A program made the translations under genes and the position numbers. A stretch of DNA of 64,000 nucleotides from Apostichopus japonicus (taxonomy: Eukaryota; Echinodermata; Holothuroidea; Aspidochirotida; Stichopodidae): NCBI RefSeq assembly GCF_037975245.1, contig NC_092567.1:25224876-25288875 (forward strand), given 5' to 3'. The notes beneath the pieces are model-generated. The model had not been told where the DNA came from, searched no databases, and worked only from the letters and a program-made list of their open reading frames with translations. The first letter of the stretch is position 1. Each line of letters starts with the position of its first letter. This document shows, piece after piece, positions 7,050-61,072 of this stretch.

Positions 7050-7719
7050 CAGGGGCGTAGCGAAGGTTTTTTTGTTGGGGGGGTGTGGAGAATTTGATTT
7101 GCCGACGGATCTGGAAGTGGTGACTGAAATGGGGAAGGGGTCTAAGGGGAGGGGGTGTCCCCCTCCCCTTTGGAAAATTTTTAGTTTTGAAACGTCCTTA
7201 GATGCAATCTGGTGCATATTTTAAGTCAAATTTGATTTGCCGACGGATCTGGAAGTGGTGACTGAAATGGGGGAGGGGTCTAAGGGTAGGGGGTGTCCCC
7301 CTCCCCTTTGGAAAATTTTTAGTTTTGAAAATTCCTTAGATGCAATCTGGTGCATATTTTAAGTCAAATTTGATTTGCCGACGGATCTGGAAGTGGTGAC
7401 TGAAATGGAGGAGGGGTCTAAGGGGAGGGGGTGTCCCCCTCCCTTTTGGAAAATTTTTAGTTTTGAAACGTCCTTAGATGCAATCTGGTGCATATTTTAA
7501 GTCAAATTTGATTTGCCGACGGATCTGGAAGTGGTGACTGAAATGGGGGAGGGGTCTCCTTTTCCTTCTCCTTTTCTCTATTCAGCTTTCCTTCTTTCTT
7601 CCCCTTCCGCTCTCTTCACCTTTTCTCATTTTGCCGACAGACCCAAAATTTGCCGACAGCGACCAAATTATTGGGGGGGTGTGACACCCCCCCCACACCC
7701 CCCGCTCGCTACGCCCCTG
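7050..7719. mobile_element. Non-autonomous hAT-like DNA transposon (670 bp), TSD GTTGTATT
   Basis: The left terminus CAGGGGCGTAGCGA and the right terminus TCGCTACGCCCCTG are exact inverted repeats over 14 bp. An exact 8-bp duplication GTTGTATT lies at 7042-7049 and 7720-7727. Most of the interior is a 138-bp tandem array. The right end has G-run, GTGTGACAC and C-run forming a hairpin like that of the 4660-5928 element, so the two belong to related families. No coding capacity was seen. Confidence 0.9.
7096..7555. repeat. 138-bp tandem repeat inside a hAT-like element
   Basis: Units begin with GATTTGCCGACGGATCTGG at 7096, 7234, 7372 and 7510, an exact 138-bp spacing. There are three full units and a partial fourth that breaks off into a T/C-rich stretch. 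Each unit contains GAGGGGTCTAAGG, a GGGGG...CCCCC hairpin and TTAGATGCAATCTGGTGCA. The last two motifs recur in the elements at 56728 and 57486. Confidence 0.9.
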
Positions 7720-7751: not shown

Positions 7752-8961
7752 CATGGGCGGCGATCCGTACTTCCGAGTGGGGGGGATATGACCTTGTTGA
7801 CTATCTAAGCGTAGCGCCACCATGAGTTGGCGCGAAGCGTACAAGAAAATTTTGGGATTTACAAACCCTCTAGATGGCCGGAAACGGCACTTGCCGAGGT
7901 TTCCAAGCGGCATATACCCAACTTTAAAATAGGGATTTCATGTCCGAAATATCTCATAATCAGGATCCAAAATACTTTTTTTTTAATTTCGGGTGTTATT
8001 TTGGGAAAATTGCCCCTGTCAATCTTGTTTCAGGCGCTACGTTAGAATGTTCGAGAGCTCTTTATATTATTCGATGAAGAAAATGGCCTCATGCTGGCTA
8101 TTATAGGCCTATACACATGCAATACACAATTACACATAGTTACATTCCTAGGTACCGATTGCTAGGGCATCCAGGTGAAACGTACGTGTATTAACAGGGG
8201 CGTCGGAAGCTATTTGGGATTGGTACGGAAGATCAGAGTGTGGCCATCTACCATAATTATCGGGGGGTGGGGGACGTTTGGAAGGTCAAACTACGCTACG
8301 CGCCACCATTGGTTGGCGCGTAGCGTAATGGAGAAAATTTTGAAAAAATGCCTCCCAGATTGCAGGAAATGGCACTTCCCGAGCTTTTCTTCTGTGCATT
8401 CTCCCTTGTCTGTTTTTGTACCCGATTAATCTTCTGAAACACATTTTGAAGTATGTTTTCATTTTGGTTCTTTATTTTTTGCCTTTTTTTCTTCTTAGTG
8501 CTACTTTTTTCTCCTTTTTTTTTGCGCCGTGAATATTGGTCCGGCGAACCGCTCCGACGCCCCTAATTAAGCATTACCCTGGTAACATGAGATTCTCAGC
8601 TGTTCGAGGGAACATGTACGTGTGTAGGCCTACTATAGGGCCTATATGAATACTATGAGGGTGCATATATGTACTATATCAATACCGTGGGCGCAATAAT
8701 ACATTTTGTTGTTATAGGGCCAATGAAGCCTACAGTCAACTATTCTTGCTTTATAAAGACTGTTTATTTGAAAAGATCGCACTGCGTTTATGGTATAGGC
8801 GAGAAATGAAGCTAAAAAGAGCCGTACATTCACGATGATGCATAAATGAAGGCATGAAAATATTCTTATTCCTGGCATTTGGTGGGGGGGGATATGGTGT
8901 ATTACATCCCCTCCACCCATTTTCATGGGGGGGATATATCCCCCCAGGATCGCCGCCCATG
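7752..8961. mobile_element. Non-autonomous hAT-like transposon copy A (1210 bp with a nested insertion), TSD AGTTTGAT
   Basis: The left end CATGGGCGGCGATCC is matched by GGATCGCCGCCCATG at the right end, 15 bp exact. The 8-bp duplication AGTTTGAT is exact at 7744-7751 and 8962-8969. A second copy of the same element lies inverted at 31837-32678. Comparing them shows that copy A carries a 371-bp extra element at 8195-8565. One copy of the shared hairpin module is at 7802-7902. No transposase is encoded. Confidence 0.9.
8195..8565. mobile_element. Small DNA transposon (371 bp) nested in the hAT-like element, 5-bp TSD ATTAA
   Basis: The left end is CAGGGGCGTCGG and the complement of the right end is TAGGGGCGTCGG, differing only at the outermost base. 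ATTAA flanks it at 8190-8194 and 8566-8570. The inverted sister copy at 31837-32678 has a single TTAAT (32234-32238 on the plus strand) at the same place, so it is a natural empty site. A long hairpin sits at 8291-8322: CGCTACGCGCCA pairs exactly with TGGCGCGTAGCG around an 8-base loop. The superfamily is unsettled: CAG...CTG-type ends suggest hAT, while TTAA could also suit other groups. Confidence 0.85.
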
Positions 8962-9246: not shown

Positions 9247-12200
9247 ATGCCGGTTAATACAAGACCAACCACGAGCGACCCCGAGACGGATCCAAACCTT
9301 GACAGAGGATGGGCGTGGTTAATACTACTCTCCGCTCTCTTAACTCATATTTTGACATTTGGTCTTGCATATGCATCGATCGGTGCCTTCTATGTGGAGC
9401 TTTTGCATGAATTTGGACAAAGCGAGTCGGCTACCGCATGGACGGGGTCAATTCTCCTAGGAGTAATGTTGTGTTCAGGTGAGAACTTATTTGATGGTCC
9501 ATTGACGAATCTTTTCAATCAAGCAATCAATCAGTAAACATTTATATAGCGCCAATATCAACAACAGTTGTTCTAAGGCGCTAAAAGACAGTTACATGAA
9601 ATTAATTGTAATACTCTTAAATGAATGAGACACCGGGAAAGGGTGGGGGGGGGGGGGGCTTTGGTTTGGATGGCTCCCAAATGATTTTAAAGCAACGATG
9701 TTGACACGGTCATGGTGGCAGTTTTAAAACAACTGGACAAGTTGATCTGCTTCCTTGTACCCCCCCCCCCCCCACCTATCACACCCTTAATCTGAAACCT
9801 GCATCGGGGTCACTGCATACAAATTCCTCGAATTCCCTTTTCCTTGTGAAAGTTGCATAAGACTTTTGGAAATTGAAGTGTATGACGATTTTGTTACATC
9901 GAGAGCGCAATGCACTCGCACATTAGCCGTGTACGGCTATGAAACTGTTGTGAGTTTTTGCTGCCAATATACAATGCTAGCATAGACTAGAATTCCCACG
10001 AAATGGGAAGATGATATTGAGGACGGTAGTGGGGGGGGGGGGGGACGGGGAGTGGAACACCGTGTAATAGTATGTACTATTCATTATACTTGATGATTGT
10101 TCTCAATCAATGTTCCTTAAAAGGCACAGAGGAGGGTTTTCGCGGAGGGGAGAGGGCGAGGGGGGGGGGGTACCATTGATTGAACTTATTTATCCACATT
10201 TGAGCGATATGTTGACCATTTATTTGCCTTAAGTTGATTCTGTTATCACTCTTACATAATAGGCCCACTTTCAAGCGTCTTCGTGGCCAAGTGCGGTACC
10301 ATGGTAACTGCGATTACTGGGGGCGCACTCGCTTCCGGTGGTTTGGCTCTCAGTGCTCTAGCTCCGAAGTTGACCTATCTCTACTTCACATTTGGCGTTA
10401 TAACTGGTAAATGATGTTTGAGGAACAAATAACACACAGAAATGGTTAAAAAATACTAAGTCAACTAACCATGCAATAGACTATTAAATTCCGATTGAAT
10501 TGTTCTATAGTATTTGTGTGTTATGAGTATCGTATTCATAAACTATTCGGATAGGCCGTATTTGTGTTACATTTAACCCCCAGCTTTCCCTCCCTCTCTA
10601 CTACACCCCACCACAAACAAAGAGACGAAAATTGGCAAAAACTGCGGTTAATGAAATAATTTTTAAAACAGATATATCATGTGACATTTTTAAATTATGA
10701 AAATAAGTGATTTTCAAGATCCTCGTTTTTGCACCCTTCACTCGCACCTGATGGAATACTTTCTATTAAGAGCATTAAACTTGTTCTTTACAATAAACTA
10801 TAATAATCGACAGTCTGATAATCCCATTAAGAGGGACGGAAGGGGAACGCGGGGAGGGGGGCGTTATACAACGAATGATTTGTGGCCATGCACACTTATA
10901 CTTCATTTGGTTTCATTTCCACAGGATTAGGATTTGGATTCTCATATCTTCCTTCCATCGTCATGTTGGGCAAGTTTTTTGAACAACGCCGCTCGATGGC
11001 TTGTGGACTTGCTGTTTCCGGGTCCGGAGTCGGTACTTTCATTTTCGCGCCACTGACCCAACATTGTATGAAAGCTTTTGGATGGAGGGCGACATTCCTC
11101 ATTCTCGGTGGTTGTTGTCTGATACTGTGTTGTTGTGGCGCCACCTATCAGACCCGTAAGTTACCAAAGAAGTTTCAACACGCAGAAGGTAAGCTAGCCA
11201 TTCATGCCAGTAGCTCTTCCGTGTTAATGTTCTTCTCTGATGTGACGTCAGTTACTGCAGAACCACCGGAACCAGCATTTAAACCGAGTTCGGTCGACCA
11301 GTGCAGCGAGAAAGATGCGGAAACACAAACAGTCATAACCTGCGTGGCTGATCAACGAAGTCCGTTAGGCTTGTCTGACGGAACACAATACAATACTTCC
11401 AATAACGCCATCTGCGAAGGTTATCACTGTCAACCAGCTGTCTACAATGTTGACGGCACACTACGTGATACTGACGTAAACCATTCGAATCTCGTGCCTT
11501 TCGGATCGCCGGTACAAACTGATACAAGTAAAATATACAGAGCGTCTTCACCAACTACGTCTGCTTTTGATATGCAAATTAGTCATCATCAGCAACAGCC
11601 AATTATTATTACTGAAAATGAAGAGCCAGCCAGATTGGAGGAGGGTTCGTCTACATCTGAACTTGTCGACCAATCAGGGCCGTCCAGACGTTTCCAACTC
11701 GGACGGTATCTTGGACAGTGTCCCACGTTTTCTCATCTTCTCAAGAATCACTTTTTTATTCTCTTTTGTCTATCAAACTTCGTCATGTGCATCGGTTATC
11801 AGCTGCCATACATGTACTTCAAGGCGTTCGCATTATCTCTAAACGTCTCAGAAAACGACTGGTCCTACATTCTATCCATTATGGGGATCACAGACATGAT
11901 AGGACGGATCATCGTCGGCTGTATATTCGACAAAATCACCAGTGGTTACGGCCGCCTCTTTGGCTTCATGTGCGCCTCAATTCTCTCGGGCATCTTTCTC
12001 TTCCTGTTATCCTTCTCCACGGAGTTCAACTCTCTGACTATTCTAGCTTCCTGTTACTCACTTCTAGCAGGCTCAACTGATTCCCTCGTGCCGGCACTTC
12101 TTGCTCACTTTGTCGGCATCGACACCCTTGCCTACTCTTTCGGAATGGTCATAGAAATGCAGGGATCTGGATTCTTGATCGGACCACCGATTGCTGGTAA

Positions 12201-31477: not shown

Positions 31478-32815
31478 CAGGGGCGTATCCAGGGGGGGGG
31501 GCGCAACAGGCGCGCGCCCCCCCTATTGGCCGTCACAAAAAAAAAAAAAAAGTTTAGCAAAAAAAAAAAAAAAAATTGATGACGACCTTTATGTGAGATG
31601 TCGGTGATCGCTCAACCCCCCCCCCCTCCCGTATGCTTTATTTTTTGTTTGCCAAAAAAAAAGGTTCTGGCGAAGTTCGGCGGCATAATAGTTTTAGAAA
31701 CATAGATGGTAATTGTGTTTGTATTATCACTATAAACACTAAATGACATGCCAGCCATACTAAATTGTGCATTTTGTGTCCATATTTACTGGAAATGTCG
31801 CTTATTATTAAGGTCGAAAAATGGATCACATATGGCCATGGGCGGCGATCCTGGGTGGAGGGGGGATATATCCCCCCATGAAAATGGGTGGAGAGGTTGA
31901 ATGCACCATACCCCCCCCCCCCACCAAATGCCAGGGATAAGAATATTTTCATGCCTACATTTATGCATCTTCGTTAATGTACGGCTCTTTTTTAGCTTCA
32001 TTTCTCGCCTACCATAAACGCAGTGCGATCTTTTCAAATAAAGCGTCTTTATAAAGCAAAAATAGTTGACTGTAGGCTTCATTGGCCCTATAACAACAAA
32101 ATGTATTATTGCGCCCACGGTATTGATATAGTACATATATGCACCCTCATAGTATTCATATAGGCCCTATAGTAGGCCTACACACGTACATGTTCCCTCG
32201 AACAGCTGAGAATCTCATGTAACCAGGGAATGCTTAATACACGTTTCACCTGGATGCCCTAGCAATCGGTACCTAGGAATGTAACTATGCGTAATTGTGT
32301 ATTGCATGTGTATAGGCCTATAATAGCCTGCATGAGGCCATTTTCTTCATCGAATAATATAACAGAGCTCTCGAACATTCTAACGTTGCGCCTGAAACAA
32401 GATTGACAGGGGCAATTTTCCCAAAATAACACCCGAAATTAAAAAAAAAAGTATTTTGGATCCTGATTATGAGATATTTCGGACATGACATCCCTATTTT
32501 AAAGTTGGGTATATGCCGCTTGGAAACCTCGGGAAGTGCCGTTTCCGGCCATCTAGAGGGTTTGTTAATCCCAAAATTTTCTTGTACGCTTCGCGCCAAC
32601 TCATGGTGGCGCTACGCTTAGATAGTCAACAAGGTCATATCCCCCCCCCCCACTCAGAAGTACAGATCGCCGCCCATGCATATGACACCATTTGGCATTT
32701 CAGCCCTTCTTTGAAAGCAAAAATTGTACACCCCCTCCCCTTAGACCCATCCCCCAGGACGGCGATCATTCATGCCTGGCGCCCCCCCTATTGGAATATC
32801 CTGGATACGCCCCTG
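31478..32815. mobile_element. Non-autonomous DNA transposon hosting a nested hAT-like copy, 5-bp TSD CTAAC
   Basis: The left end CAGGGGCGTATCCAGG has an exact 16-bp inverted partner at 32800-32815. CTAAC flanks both sides (31473-31477 and 32816-32820). Removing the nested element at 31837-32678 and its duplication leaves about 490 bp. The interior has A-runs near 31540-31575 and C/G-runs, and no open frame. The 5-bp duplication matches that of the 8195-8565 element, which has similar CAGGGGCG ends. Confidence 0.82.
31837..32678. mobile_element. Non-autonomous hAT-like transposon copy B (842 bp), nested and inverted relative to copy A
   Basis: The ends CATGGGCGGCGATC and GATCGCCGCCCATG are inverted repeats. 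The flanks CATATGGC (31829-31836) and CATATGAC (32679-32686) match at 7 of 8 bases. The whole interior matches copy A (7752-8961) in reverse orientation, except for the 371-bp insertion present only in copy A. It also carries the hairpin module, on the minus strand at about 32530-32635. Confidence 0.9.
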
Positions 32816-45463: not shown

Positions 45464-45675
45464 GTTTGATGCAGTGGCGGAGATTTCTTGTCAGAAGTGG
45501 GGGGGGGGGGGGGGTTGCAGGCCATTGATGAAATAAAAAGTCATAACTGCTGGCGCACTATCTAAGTGGAGCGCCACCATAAGTTGGCGCGAAGTGCACA
45601 AGAATTTTTTGGCAAATATTGCCTCCCAGATTGCAGTAAATGGCACTGCCCAGGCCTTGAAAAGCTGCATTTAAC

Positions 45676-45830
45676 CAGTGGCGTATGCAGGATTTTCTAA
45701 CCCGGGGGGGGGGGGCGCGTATTACTATCTAAGCGGAGCGCCACCATTGGTTGGCGCGCAGCGTAAAAGCAAATTTGTGGTTTTGGTACCCCCAGATAAC
45801 CGGAAATGGCACTTCTCGGGCTTGAAACTG
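45676..45830. mobile_element. Left end of a further transposon, truncated
   Basis: CAGTGGCGTATGCAGG followed by a G-run looks like a separate terminus from that at 45472. The hairpin module follows within 50 bases, at 45725. No matching right end was found, so its extent is unknown. Confidence 0.5.
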
Positions 45831-46283
45831 ACCAACCATATGTACACTTTTGCCTGAGAACCAAGTTTTTTCCAAATACCTTTTTTCTCATCTATAACTT
45901 CGTCACCAGTCACACATCATGTTCGACTTCATCACATATCCTGTGGATCATTGCTTTTGTAGGTGATTCTTCATCGCGGCCCACAATATCCGTCAGCCCC
46001 ACTGTTCAGAATTTGAAAATTCACAATTCTCGTGAATAAATTCACTTCAAAACATACCCATAATGTTGCACAAAATATCATCTATGGACAACCGATATAG
46101 AAAAACCTCCTTCAAACCCTAACAGACGGGTCAAAATTGCACGAGTATGATGAAGTATGATGAAGAATGTTGGTTAGGGAATTTTCGAAAATTCAGACGG
46201 CTATTACAAAATTTCGTTGAAGGAAATAAAAAATATACCAGATATTTCCGAAACCGAACACTACACACATCGACAGTTTTGAG

Positions 46284-46840
46284 CATGGGCGCAGATCAGT
46301 CTTGGATAATGGTGAGGACGCGTGTCTGTTCTATGACACTATCTAAGCGGAGCGCGACCATGGGTTCGCGCCTAGCGTACGATTTTTTGGGGCAATATAC
46401 CTCCCAGATCGCCGGAAATAACACTTCCCAGACCTAATGATGCTCCTAAACCTCCTTAAGTTTTAGATCTCATGGCTTAGAAATTTAGTTTGGAGAAATA
46501 CATGGGCGTCTGCAGAAAGAAAATCAGGGGACAAATAATCCAAGTAGACTTTTGTATATACGATGGGTCTGGGGTCCTCTCCCAGAAAACAAATATAGAC
46601 TGCCGCAAATGCGATTTCCGTCCTATATTTAACAACTGTGGATAAAATACAATAAAATGAGAACTGCTGCATGTCATTTGCACAATGCTGGATCAAACTG
46701 CGCCAAAGTTCAATACAGGGGAACTTGAAATGCAGCTATTGGTCAAGACAAATTGGTGGGGACACGGTATATCATGTCCCCACTACTGAAAAAGTTGGTG
46801 GGGACGCGTCCCGCTGTCCTCACCAGGATCTGTGCCCATG
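46284..46840. mobile_element. Non-autonomous hAT-like transposon, CATGGGCGCAGATC family copy 1 (557 bp)
   Basis: The left end CATGGGCGCAGATC and the complement of the right end CATGGGCACAGATC form inverted repeats. GTTTTGAG (46276-46283) and GTTTGGAG (46841-46848) match at 7 of 8. The interior matches 60499-61072 over its whole length. It sits inside the 45472-47422 element. Confidence 0.88.
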
Positions 46841-47430
46841 GTTTGGAGGCTGTTTATCGTGGAACGCCATTTTCATGCTCAATGATATGATGTGATATCT
46901 GCTGTTTGCTTTACAAATTCGAATAATTTTGTCACTGTTCCTCTTTCTCTTCCCGTTTTCTTGCCGTATTTTCTACTCCGTCCTTTTCTCTCTTTCTTCT
47001 TTTTCTTTTCCTTCCTTCACCTCGTTGAAGTTGGCAAGTGTATACAGTTCCAAAGCTATTCAACAGCAACAAAACGTTATTTTGTGTATGTCTGTTGTGG
47101 GGTGAAGTTAGCGCTATGAGCTACAAGTTCCAATGCGCAAGGTGGGTGAAAGGGGCTAGAAATAATGTGTGGGTCAATTCTAACTCGGTTTTCGGTCGTT
47201 AATTGTTGATGTAGCCTACCAGGTAAAAGGTTGAAATGACTTTAACAATTTCAAATTTAATAATTTGATTTATTACGCCATTTGGAGCACATAACATAGG
47301 CTATAACAGAACATTACTGGCAAAAAGTAGGGGGGGGGGGGTTGATTGTGTGGGCCAACCCCCCCTCTTCAAAAAGTGGGGGGGGGTTAAAACCCCCAAC
47401 CCCCCCTGTTTCTCCGCCACTGGTTTGATG

Positions 47431-60498: not shown

Positions 60499-61072
60499 CA
60501 TGGGCGCAGATCAGTCTTGGATAATGGTACGGACGTGTGTCTGTTCTCTGATACTATCTAAGCGGAGCGCGACCATGGGTTCGCGCGTAGCGTCCAAGAT
60601 TTTTTTTGGCAAATATACCTCTTAAATCGCCGGAAATAACACTACTCAGACCCAATGATGCTCCAAACCTCGTTCAGTTTTTAAATCTCATGGCTCAGAA
60701 ATTTAGTTTGGGGAAAAACATGGGCGTCTGCAGAAAACAAATCAGGGAAAAAAATAATCCAAGTAGACTTTGTAAACGATGGTTCTGGGACCCTCTCCCA
60801 GAAAACAATTATAGACTGCCGCAAATGATTGAATGTGTTAATGCCTCAGCGGAGAAGCCACGCCTAATAGTGTCAATAGTAATAATTCTCGTCTTCTATA
60901 GCATGTCATTTGCACAATGCTGGATCCAACTGCGCCAAAGTTCAATATAGGGGAATTTGAAATGCAGCGTTTGGTCAGGAAAAATTCGTGGGGACACGGT
61001 ATATCATGTCCTCACCACTTAAAAAGTTGGTAGGGACGCGTCCTGCTGTCCCCACCAGGATCTGCGCCCATG
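60499..61072. mobile_element. Non-autonomous hAT-like transposon, CATGGGCGCAGATC family copy 2 (574 bp)
   Basis: The ends CATGGGCGCAGATC and GATCTGCGCCCATG are exact inverted repeats. AACAAAGC (60491-60498) and CACAAAGC (61073-61080) match at 7 of 8. The interior matches 46284-46840, including the hairpin module at 60554-60652, but has a block near 60825-60900 that copy 1 lacks. Confidence 0.9.

Follow-up and report, generated by a model that had tools for sequence, protein, structure and literature searches.

A subterminal palindromic block behind different tips of hAT-type transposons: a candidate exchangeable 3′-end site

The block and its host elements in the window

The window, by which we mean the whole stretch of 64,000 nt that was analysed, contains seven copies of a block of approximately 99 bp (the module). 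These copies had been listed in an earlier note on this DNA, and all seven are indeed present, as they can be aligned over 99 bp with a mean column identity of 83%. Taking the A of ACTATC, or its equivalent, as the first base, the modules start at 7800, 8286, 45557, 45724, 46338 and 60553 on the plus strand and at 32626 on the minus strand. In each host the module is subterminal, lying just inside one end. The features are as follows:

7752 to 8961, plus strand (module direction): E1, non-autonomous hAT element with tip CATGGGCGGCGATCC, TSD agtttgat (8/8), derived from the F829 transposon
7800 to 7898, plus strand: module of E1 (alignment, covariance model)
8195 to 8565, plus strand: E2, nested in E1, with tip CAGGGGCGTCGGA and the 5-bp TSD attaa; the E1 sister copy (31837 to 32678) has the empty site
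8286 to 8384, plus strand: module of E2, with a variant outer part (alignment, covariance model)
8292 to 8327, no strand assigned: longest palindrome among the copies, with arms at 8292-8305 and 8314-8327 (14/14 complementary)
31837 to 32678, minus strand: sister copy of E1, TSD 7/8
32528 to 32626, minus strand: module of the E1 sister copy (alignment, covariance model)
45472 to 47422, plus strand: E3, non-autonomous hAT element with tip CAGTGGCGGAGA, TSD gtttgatg (8/8), derived from the F503 transposon
45557 to 45655, plus strand: module of E3 (alignment, covariance model)
45676 to 45820, plus strand: E4, a second tip, CAGTGGCGTATGC, inside E3, with its module at 45724-45820; no right end found
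46284 to 46840, plus strand: E5, hAT MITE nested in E3, with tip CATGGGCGCAGATC, TSD 7/8
46338 to 46433, plus strand: module of E5, palindrome arms GCGCGA/TCGCGC
60499 to 61072, plus strand: E6, hAT MITE of the same family as E5, TSD 7/8
60553 to 60651, plus strand: module of E6, palindrome arms GCGCGA/TCGCGC

Six host elements could be delimited in the window, five with an 8-bp TSD and one with a 5-bp TSD, and their tips differ, as the earlier note had pointed out. The copy that the note lists at 45725 has a left tip, at 45676, but its own right end was not found. E3 is 94% identical to F503 over 407 bp at the far end and 80% identical over 130 bp at the module end, while E1 and two elements at other loci (L006, L015) are F829 derivatives, 92-95% identical near both ends and with intact modules. 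Beside E1, a module-free hAT-like MITE (CAGGGGCGTAGCG...CGCTACGCCCCTG; TSD gttgtatt, 8/8) with internal tandem repeats occupies 7051-7719, and an open stretch at approximately 9250-9480 resembles, by eye, the start of a monocarboxylate-transporter-type protein.

The module consists, in order, of ACTATCTAAGCG, the palindrome GCGCCACCATnnGTTGGCGC, nAGCGTACAAGAAAATTTT, an AT-rich middle and a distal part similar to CCCAGATnnCnGGAAATGGCACT. Unlike in the earlier note's description, the copy at 8286 (8288 in that note) does not begin with CTATCTAAGCG; it reads CAAACTACGCT and has a longer perfect palindrome. In the modules of E5 and E6, the arms GCGCCA/TGGCGC have become GCGCGA/TCGCGC, a paired change that fits two half-sites.

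A covariance model was built from the seven window copies and recovers those seven by construction. Searching the window with it gave no eighth full copy (the next match had E = 1.2), once the reverse-strand matches to palindromes of the same seven copies were set aside. The genome was searched over 671,581,487 bases in 35 contigs. The core pattern AAGCGNNGCGCSACCATNNGTTSGCGCNNAGCG, with up to two mismatches, had 9,298 + 9,407 = 18,705 matches, and the pattern for the distal part, with up to one mismatch, had 6,020 + 6,058 = 12,078. As the reversed-pattern control gave 0 in both cases, the module copies are not due to chance.

Placement in autonomous and non-autonomous elements

The same block stands behind additional tips in 20 further loci, which were picked for an exact match to the core. 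hAT elements are described as usually having 8-bp TSDs, and those with 5 bp are named hAT5 (PMC12730594). Among the A-type elements (tip CAGGCGCGTATCC or close), an exact 5-bp TSD was found in five of the six copies with both ends located and a 6-bp TSD in the other; the right end of a seventh A-type copy, in L012, was not found. Families of other types have, where a TSD was found, one of 8 bp, exact or with one mismatch; the search yielded none for L011, the tip at 45676 and the inner C-type tips. Module-bearing MITEs delimited by an 8-bp TSD (one mismatch at most) are E1, its sister, E3, E5, E6 and those in L001, L003, L006, L014-L017, L007, L012, L019, L023 and L055, with those in L007, L012 and L017 being nested. 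The A-type elements and E2 have 5-bp TSDs in place of 8-bp ones and are likened to hAT5 by TSD length only (PMC12730594). The search for an autonomous partner transposase of these 5-bp-TSD families found none. A second E2-type insertion lies at L011:1363-1747, within a MITE derived from F796; its TSD matches at 4/5 positions and the site is unoccupied in F796.

Autonomous relatives were looked for with Pfam, which gave at least 150 matches to the hAT dimerisation domain (150 of 633 candidates scored) and 60 to DUF4371. Three of the autonomous elements that could be delimited carry the module, in each case at the 3′ end and antisense to a DUF4371 transposase. F835 (C3) has 4373 bp, the TSD cacccgga (8/8) and the module 70 nt from its 3′ tip. 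F796 (C17), from which L011 is derived, has 5519 bp, the TSD tatccgat (8/8) and the module 48 nt from its 3′ tip. F503 (C17) has 6405 bp, TIRs with one mismatch in 12, a TSD of 5/8 and the module 49 nt from the tip. The outer tip beyond the module is the element's own TIR in both F835 and F796. The module is thus not an independent insertion, as it lies inside TIRs with perfect TSDs in these two elements. A related element, F866, is complete (4485 bp; TSD cacacacc, 8/8) and lacks the module; it is the only one shown to be both complete and module-free.

These partners place the module-bearing elements in the hAT superfamily, as their transposases have hAT domains: F796 and F829 match DUF4371 and Dimer_Tnp_hAT, F503 matches DUF4371 with Dimer_Tnp_hAT at C17:27787505, and F835 matches DUF4371 only, in the first 516 residues sent to Pfam. 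Near F835, no dimerisation-domain match was found among the 150 scored of the 633 candidates. By domains and TSD they can be likened to the Tip group (BuT2), which has DUF4371, a dimerisation region and 8-bp TSDs, although no shared module is mentioned for that group in the accessible portion of the source (PMC3942097). Upstream of F835, L034 (C3:6757900-6761700) contains a 140-residue frame that resembles, by eye, a fragment of a Ty3-type reverse transcriptase.

Upstream windows of approximately 2-3 kb at 23 transposase loci contained no full module except two in one nested MITE (L023), and the module was rejected as a 5′ or promoter element on this basis. Of 13 downstream flanks (35 kb), six contain a module, antisense to the transposase in all six, whereas approximately one copy, on either strand, would be expected in those 35 kb from the genome density. 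Some of these modules belong to other elements. The one downstream of F829 was rejected as its own because it is that of a nested 288-bp MITE (TSD gaaatcgc, 8/8); the module of F829 itself is partial (L055 2257-2317, 31.5 bits), and this family is counted as module-bearing through its MITEs. Similarly, the module downstream of F951 was dropped, as it lies in a segment that has an F866-type end and is also present in L013. At the F802 locus, a 5′ TIR was looked for and not found.

The position downstream of, and antisense to, the transposase frame in the three delimited autonomous elements is what one would expect if the module were an antisense promoter, a terminator or a 3′ processing signal of the transposase unit. 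Nevertheless, the module is retained in thousands of copies that have no transposase frame, including MITEs as short as the 288-bp element in L055 and the 388-bp element in L019, and we regard such a role in transcription as decidedly unlikely.

The distance from the start of the module to the tip ranges from 40 to 92 nt across families, so that a fixed spacing of the Hermes type is not observed, and within the E1 family this distance also varies through a G run. Other motifs keep their distance. In all four delimited autonomous elements (F835, F796, F503 and F866), the start of a G7 tract is exactly 28 nt away from the 3′ tip. At the 5′ ends of F835 (L034, L051), F796 (L104, L047), F503 (L038, L053) and F866 (L036, L052), a G7 is found at 16-17 nt, a second tract of G5-G7 at 26-28 nt and a C7 at 38-39 nt.

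Low variability of the palindrome and apparent exchange between families

The transposases of F835, F796 and F503 share only 23.4, 25.1 and 37.3% identity in pairwise comparisons (F503 by its first 495 residues), whereas their modules share 80.8, 74.7 and 76.8%. When six 3′ ends were compared (those of F835, F796, F503 and F802, the nested MITE at F829 and the inserted segment at F951), the main match covered 46-100 bp in 14 of the 15 pairs and 139 bp in the other; E1 and F796 match over 159 bp at 82%. A comparison of seven ends, two of them from 5-bp-TSD families, gave matches better than shuffled sequences in all 21 pairs for the palindromic 40 bp (mean identity 0.89) and in all 21 for the distal part. 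The middle exceeded shuffles in 14 of 21, corresponding to 14 of 15 pairs without E2 and none of the six with it. Outside the block, 0/21 pairs exceeded shuffles over the outer 40 nt, and 3/21 and 2/21 did so over the two 40-nt stretches that follow on the inner side. The earlier note's description of a module kept between families with different termini is supported, the module being better conserved than its surroundings; this agrees with the binding site that the note had among its suggestions, and these families do not behave as derivatives in which the module is kept no better than its neighbourhood.

Conservation of this kind could simply reflect recent common origin, and rates of change were compared within and between families, the within-family sets being made up of copies chosen through element sequence that lies outside the block. 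Within the C-type set, which holds more than one sub-family and for which 17 of 20 copies were used (L118, a partial copy, L121, a tandem duplication, and L124, a copy of L123, were left out), 59/678 palindromic sites (8.7%) and 23/441 middle sites (5.2%) differ from the majority. Within the E1-type set (19 of 20 copies, L145 being left out), the figures are 14/757 (1.9%) and 11/513 (2.1%), so that few changes carry this result. Among 17 family representatives, by contrast, 43/680 palindromic sites (6.3%) and 113/453 middle sites (24.9%) differ, with Fisher p values for the between- versus within-family comparison of 4.8e-11 (C-type) and 0.009 (E1-type). The same was observed for the ten representatives not found through the palindrome pattern (26/400 vs 67/267; p 5.8e-9, C-type, and 0.016, E1-type) and for the four linked to transposases (6/160 vs 24/108; p 1e-6, C-type, and 0.011, E1-type). 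For the distal part, the same test against the middle gave no significant excess of constraint (p 0.58 and 0.11). These p values apply to blocks (H, M and T) that were set after viewing the alignment, following the earlier note's description, and to families that are non-independent rows. Forty loci chosen for having no exact core match were kept out of the rates, with L082 and L088 serving as family representatives.

Between families, the palindromic half thus varies approximately four times less than the middle, whereas in the two families compared internally it does not vary less, a difference that suggests that it is kept by selection in the lineages that spread. The result bears on the possibility that the module has no function and is only a patch of homology, carried about when elements recombine or insert into one another. 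Such a patch would account for the composites with two or three modules, which are common in the loci fetched, and for the tip swaps at the edge of the module; a difference in constraint that appears between but not within families would not follow from it, and we give this explanation a low probability.

A palindrome may also be preserved as a hairpin, and the earlier note had included a small structured RNA among its suggestions. Across the 17 representatives there are ten pairs; 97.6% of the cells are paired, and a double-sided change occurs once. A second double change is present in L099, a single decayed copy, and the copy at 8286 folds with a z of -4.60 (DNA parameters). However, seven of the ten pairs are invariant and another two change on a single side, each measure is matched in 26 of 500 shuffles, and the folding z is between -1.84 and +0.19 in five of six copies (DNA parameters). 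In the folding of the A3 alignment, double changes occur in 2 of 16 pairs and the covariation term is slightly unfavourable. Moreover, a palindromic site in duplex DNA predicts the same paired changes, the change in L099 could be two CpG mutations, and no Rfam match at gathering score was found in the window. Consequently, this suggestion of the note finds little support, and there is only a very slight chance that the module works as a structured RNA.

How the module came to be common to these families was addressed with an 11-row tree of transposases. A single clade of F835, F796, F503, F829 and F802 was rejected (p 0.0037; trivially more strongly when F802, the sister of F829, was dropped), although F835 is a long branch (2.59), few families are covered, and without F835 the clade of F796, F503, F829 and F802 was not rejected (p 0.117). 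Taken together with a middle that can still be aligned across families and with the occurrence of the module in families with 5-bp and 8-bp TSDs, the rejection of the clade favours, short of proof, the module having passed laterally between families rather than by descent alone.

Apparent exchange is also seen at the tips. The elements in L001, L008 and L013 are 89-90% identical to F503 over 514-730 bp from the outer edge of the module and have different tips, while in L003 and L016 an A-like module and interior stand behind a CAGGGGCGGCGATC tip, with 8-bp TSDs. Such swaps begin at the outer edge of the module, and template switching inside the shared block would produce them. Composites in which two or three modules have one orientation and each follows the tip of another family were observed in L005, L007, L009, L010, L012 and L017 and at 45472-47422 of the window. 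In L070 (AGAGCCGTATATAGAGACGGCTCT), and in related form in L089, L090 and L099, a short insert is located at the outer edge of the module, between direct repeats ending in ACTATC.

A possible protein-binding site at the 3′ end

A subterminal site is usually taken to be specific to a single transposase. The module could be such a site if the transposase of each family bound the palindrome through an N-terminal zinc finger, as proposed by analogy with Hermes. The Hermes transposase binds a quasi-palindrome at the left end only, through two BED domains, and requires exact phasing to the tip (PMC10368747). The module is likewise palindromic and one-sided, as are the Hermes STR1-STR2 sites near one hAT end, the short MITEs of 288 and 388 bp keep it, and the N-terminal regions of module-bearing transposases are related (F835 and F796 are identical at 23/65 positions, z 10.1). 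Nevertheless, this similarity extends to F752 and F801, families not shown to carry the module, and thus does not set the module-bearing transposases apart, nor was any special domain found in the pieces sent to Pfam (F835 and F503 in part only). Additionally, identity between module-bearing transposases falls to 23%. The Hermes sites are AAGT/AAGC motifs that belong to a single family, keep a rigid distance from the tip and are recognised by the BED domains of Hermes itself, whereas here many families have a block of approximately 99 bp in common, starting 40-92 nt inside the tip. Finally, the G tracts, strictly phased at both ends and present also in the module-free F866, are better candidates for the core site of the transposase than the module. 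Binding by each family's own transposase consequently seems rather unlikely; the G7/C7 tracts may form the core site for the transposase in these hAT elements, with the module as a candidate accessory site, most simply for a host protein.

We tentatively prefer, at slightly less than an even chance, the reading in which the module is an exchangeable cis-acting site of the 3′ end whose palindrome is bound by a protein, more likely a host factor than the cognate transposases. On this sequence-based proposal, the module would act 40-92 nt inside the 3′ end of hAT-type transposons, reading inward, and its working core would be the palindrome GCGCCACCATnnGTTGGCGC with the flanks CTATCTAAGCG and AGCG. 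A protein would bind the palindrome as duplex DNA through two half-sites, and its binding may assist recognition or synapsis of the 3′ end, or keep that end accessible. A common host protein would be the likelier binder because the module is shared by diverged transposases, by families with 5-bp and 8-bp TSDs and at variable distances from the tip. By recombining or switching templates inside the block, families would acquire or exchange it, and this would explain why one interior is found with different tips. A bolder form of this proposal is conceivable if doubtful: the module would be a transferable end cassette that spreads laterally between lineages differing in transposase and in integration geometry (5- and 8-bp duplications), because it recruits a host protein improving any hAT-like end, and a single host factor would shape the ends of a whole transposon community.

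Subterminal transposase sites are already known; the present block, which appears to be under selection, extends across diverged hAT transposases and TSD lengths. In maize Ac/Ds, the interiors of non-autonomous elements differ, although these elements have their ends and some subterminal repeats in common (PMC3260210). Those repeats belong to one transposase system, whereas the present block spans diverged transposases. A search of the open-licence literature found no description of this module or of a comparable selected block across families.

If a selected site is indeed shared in this way, transposon ends would be modular and tradeable across diverged transposases and TSD lengths, which would explain the continual rise of non-autonomous families with new tips. 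The 40-bp palindromic part could then serve as bait for its protein, which thousands of copies may need.
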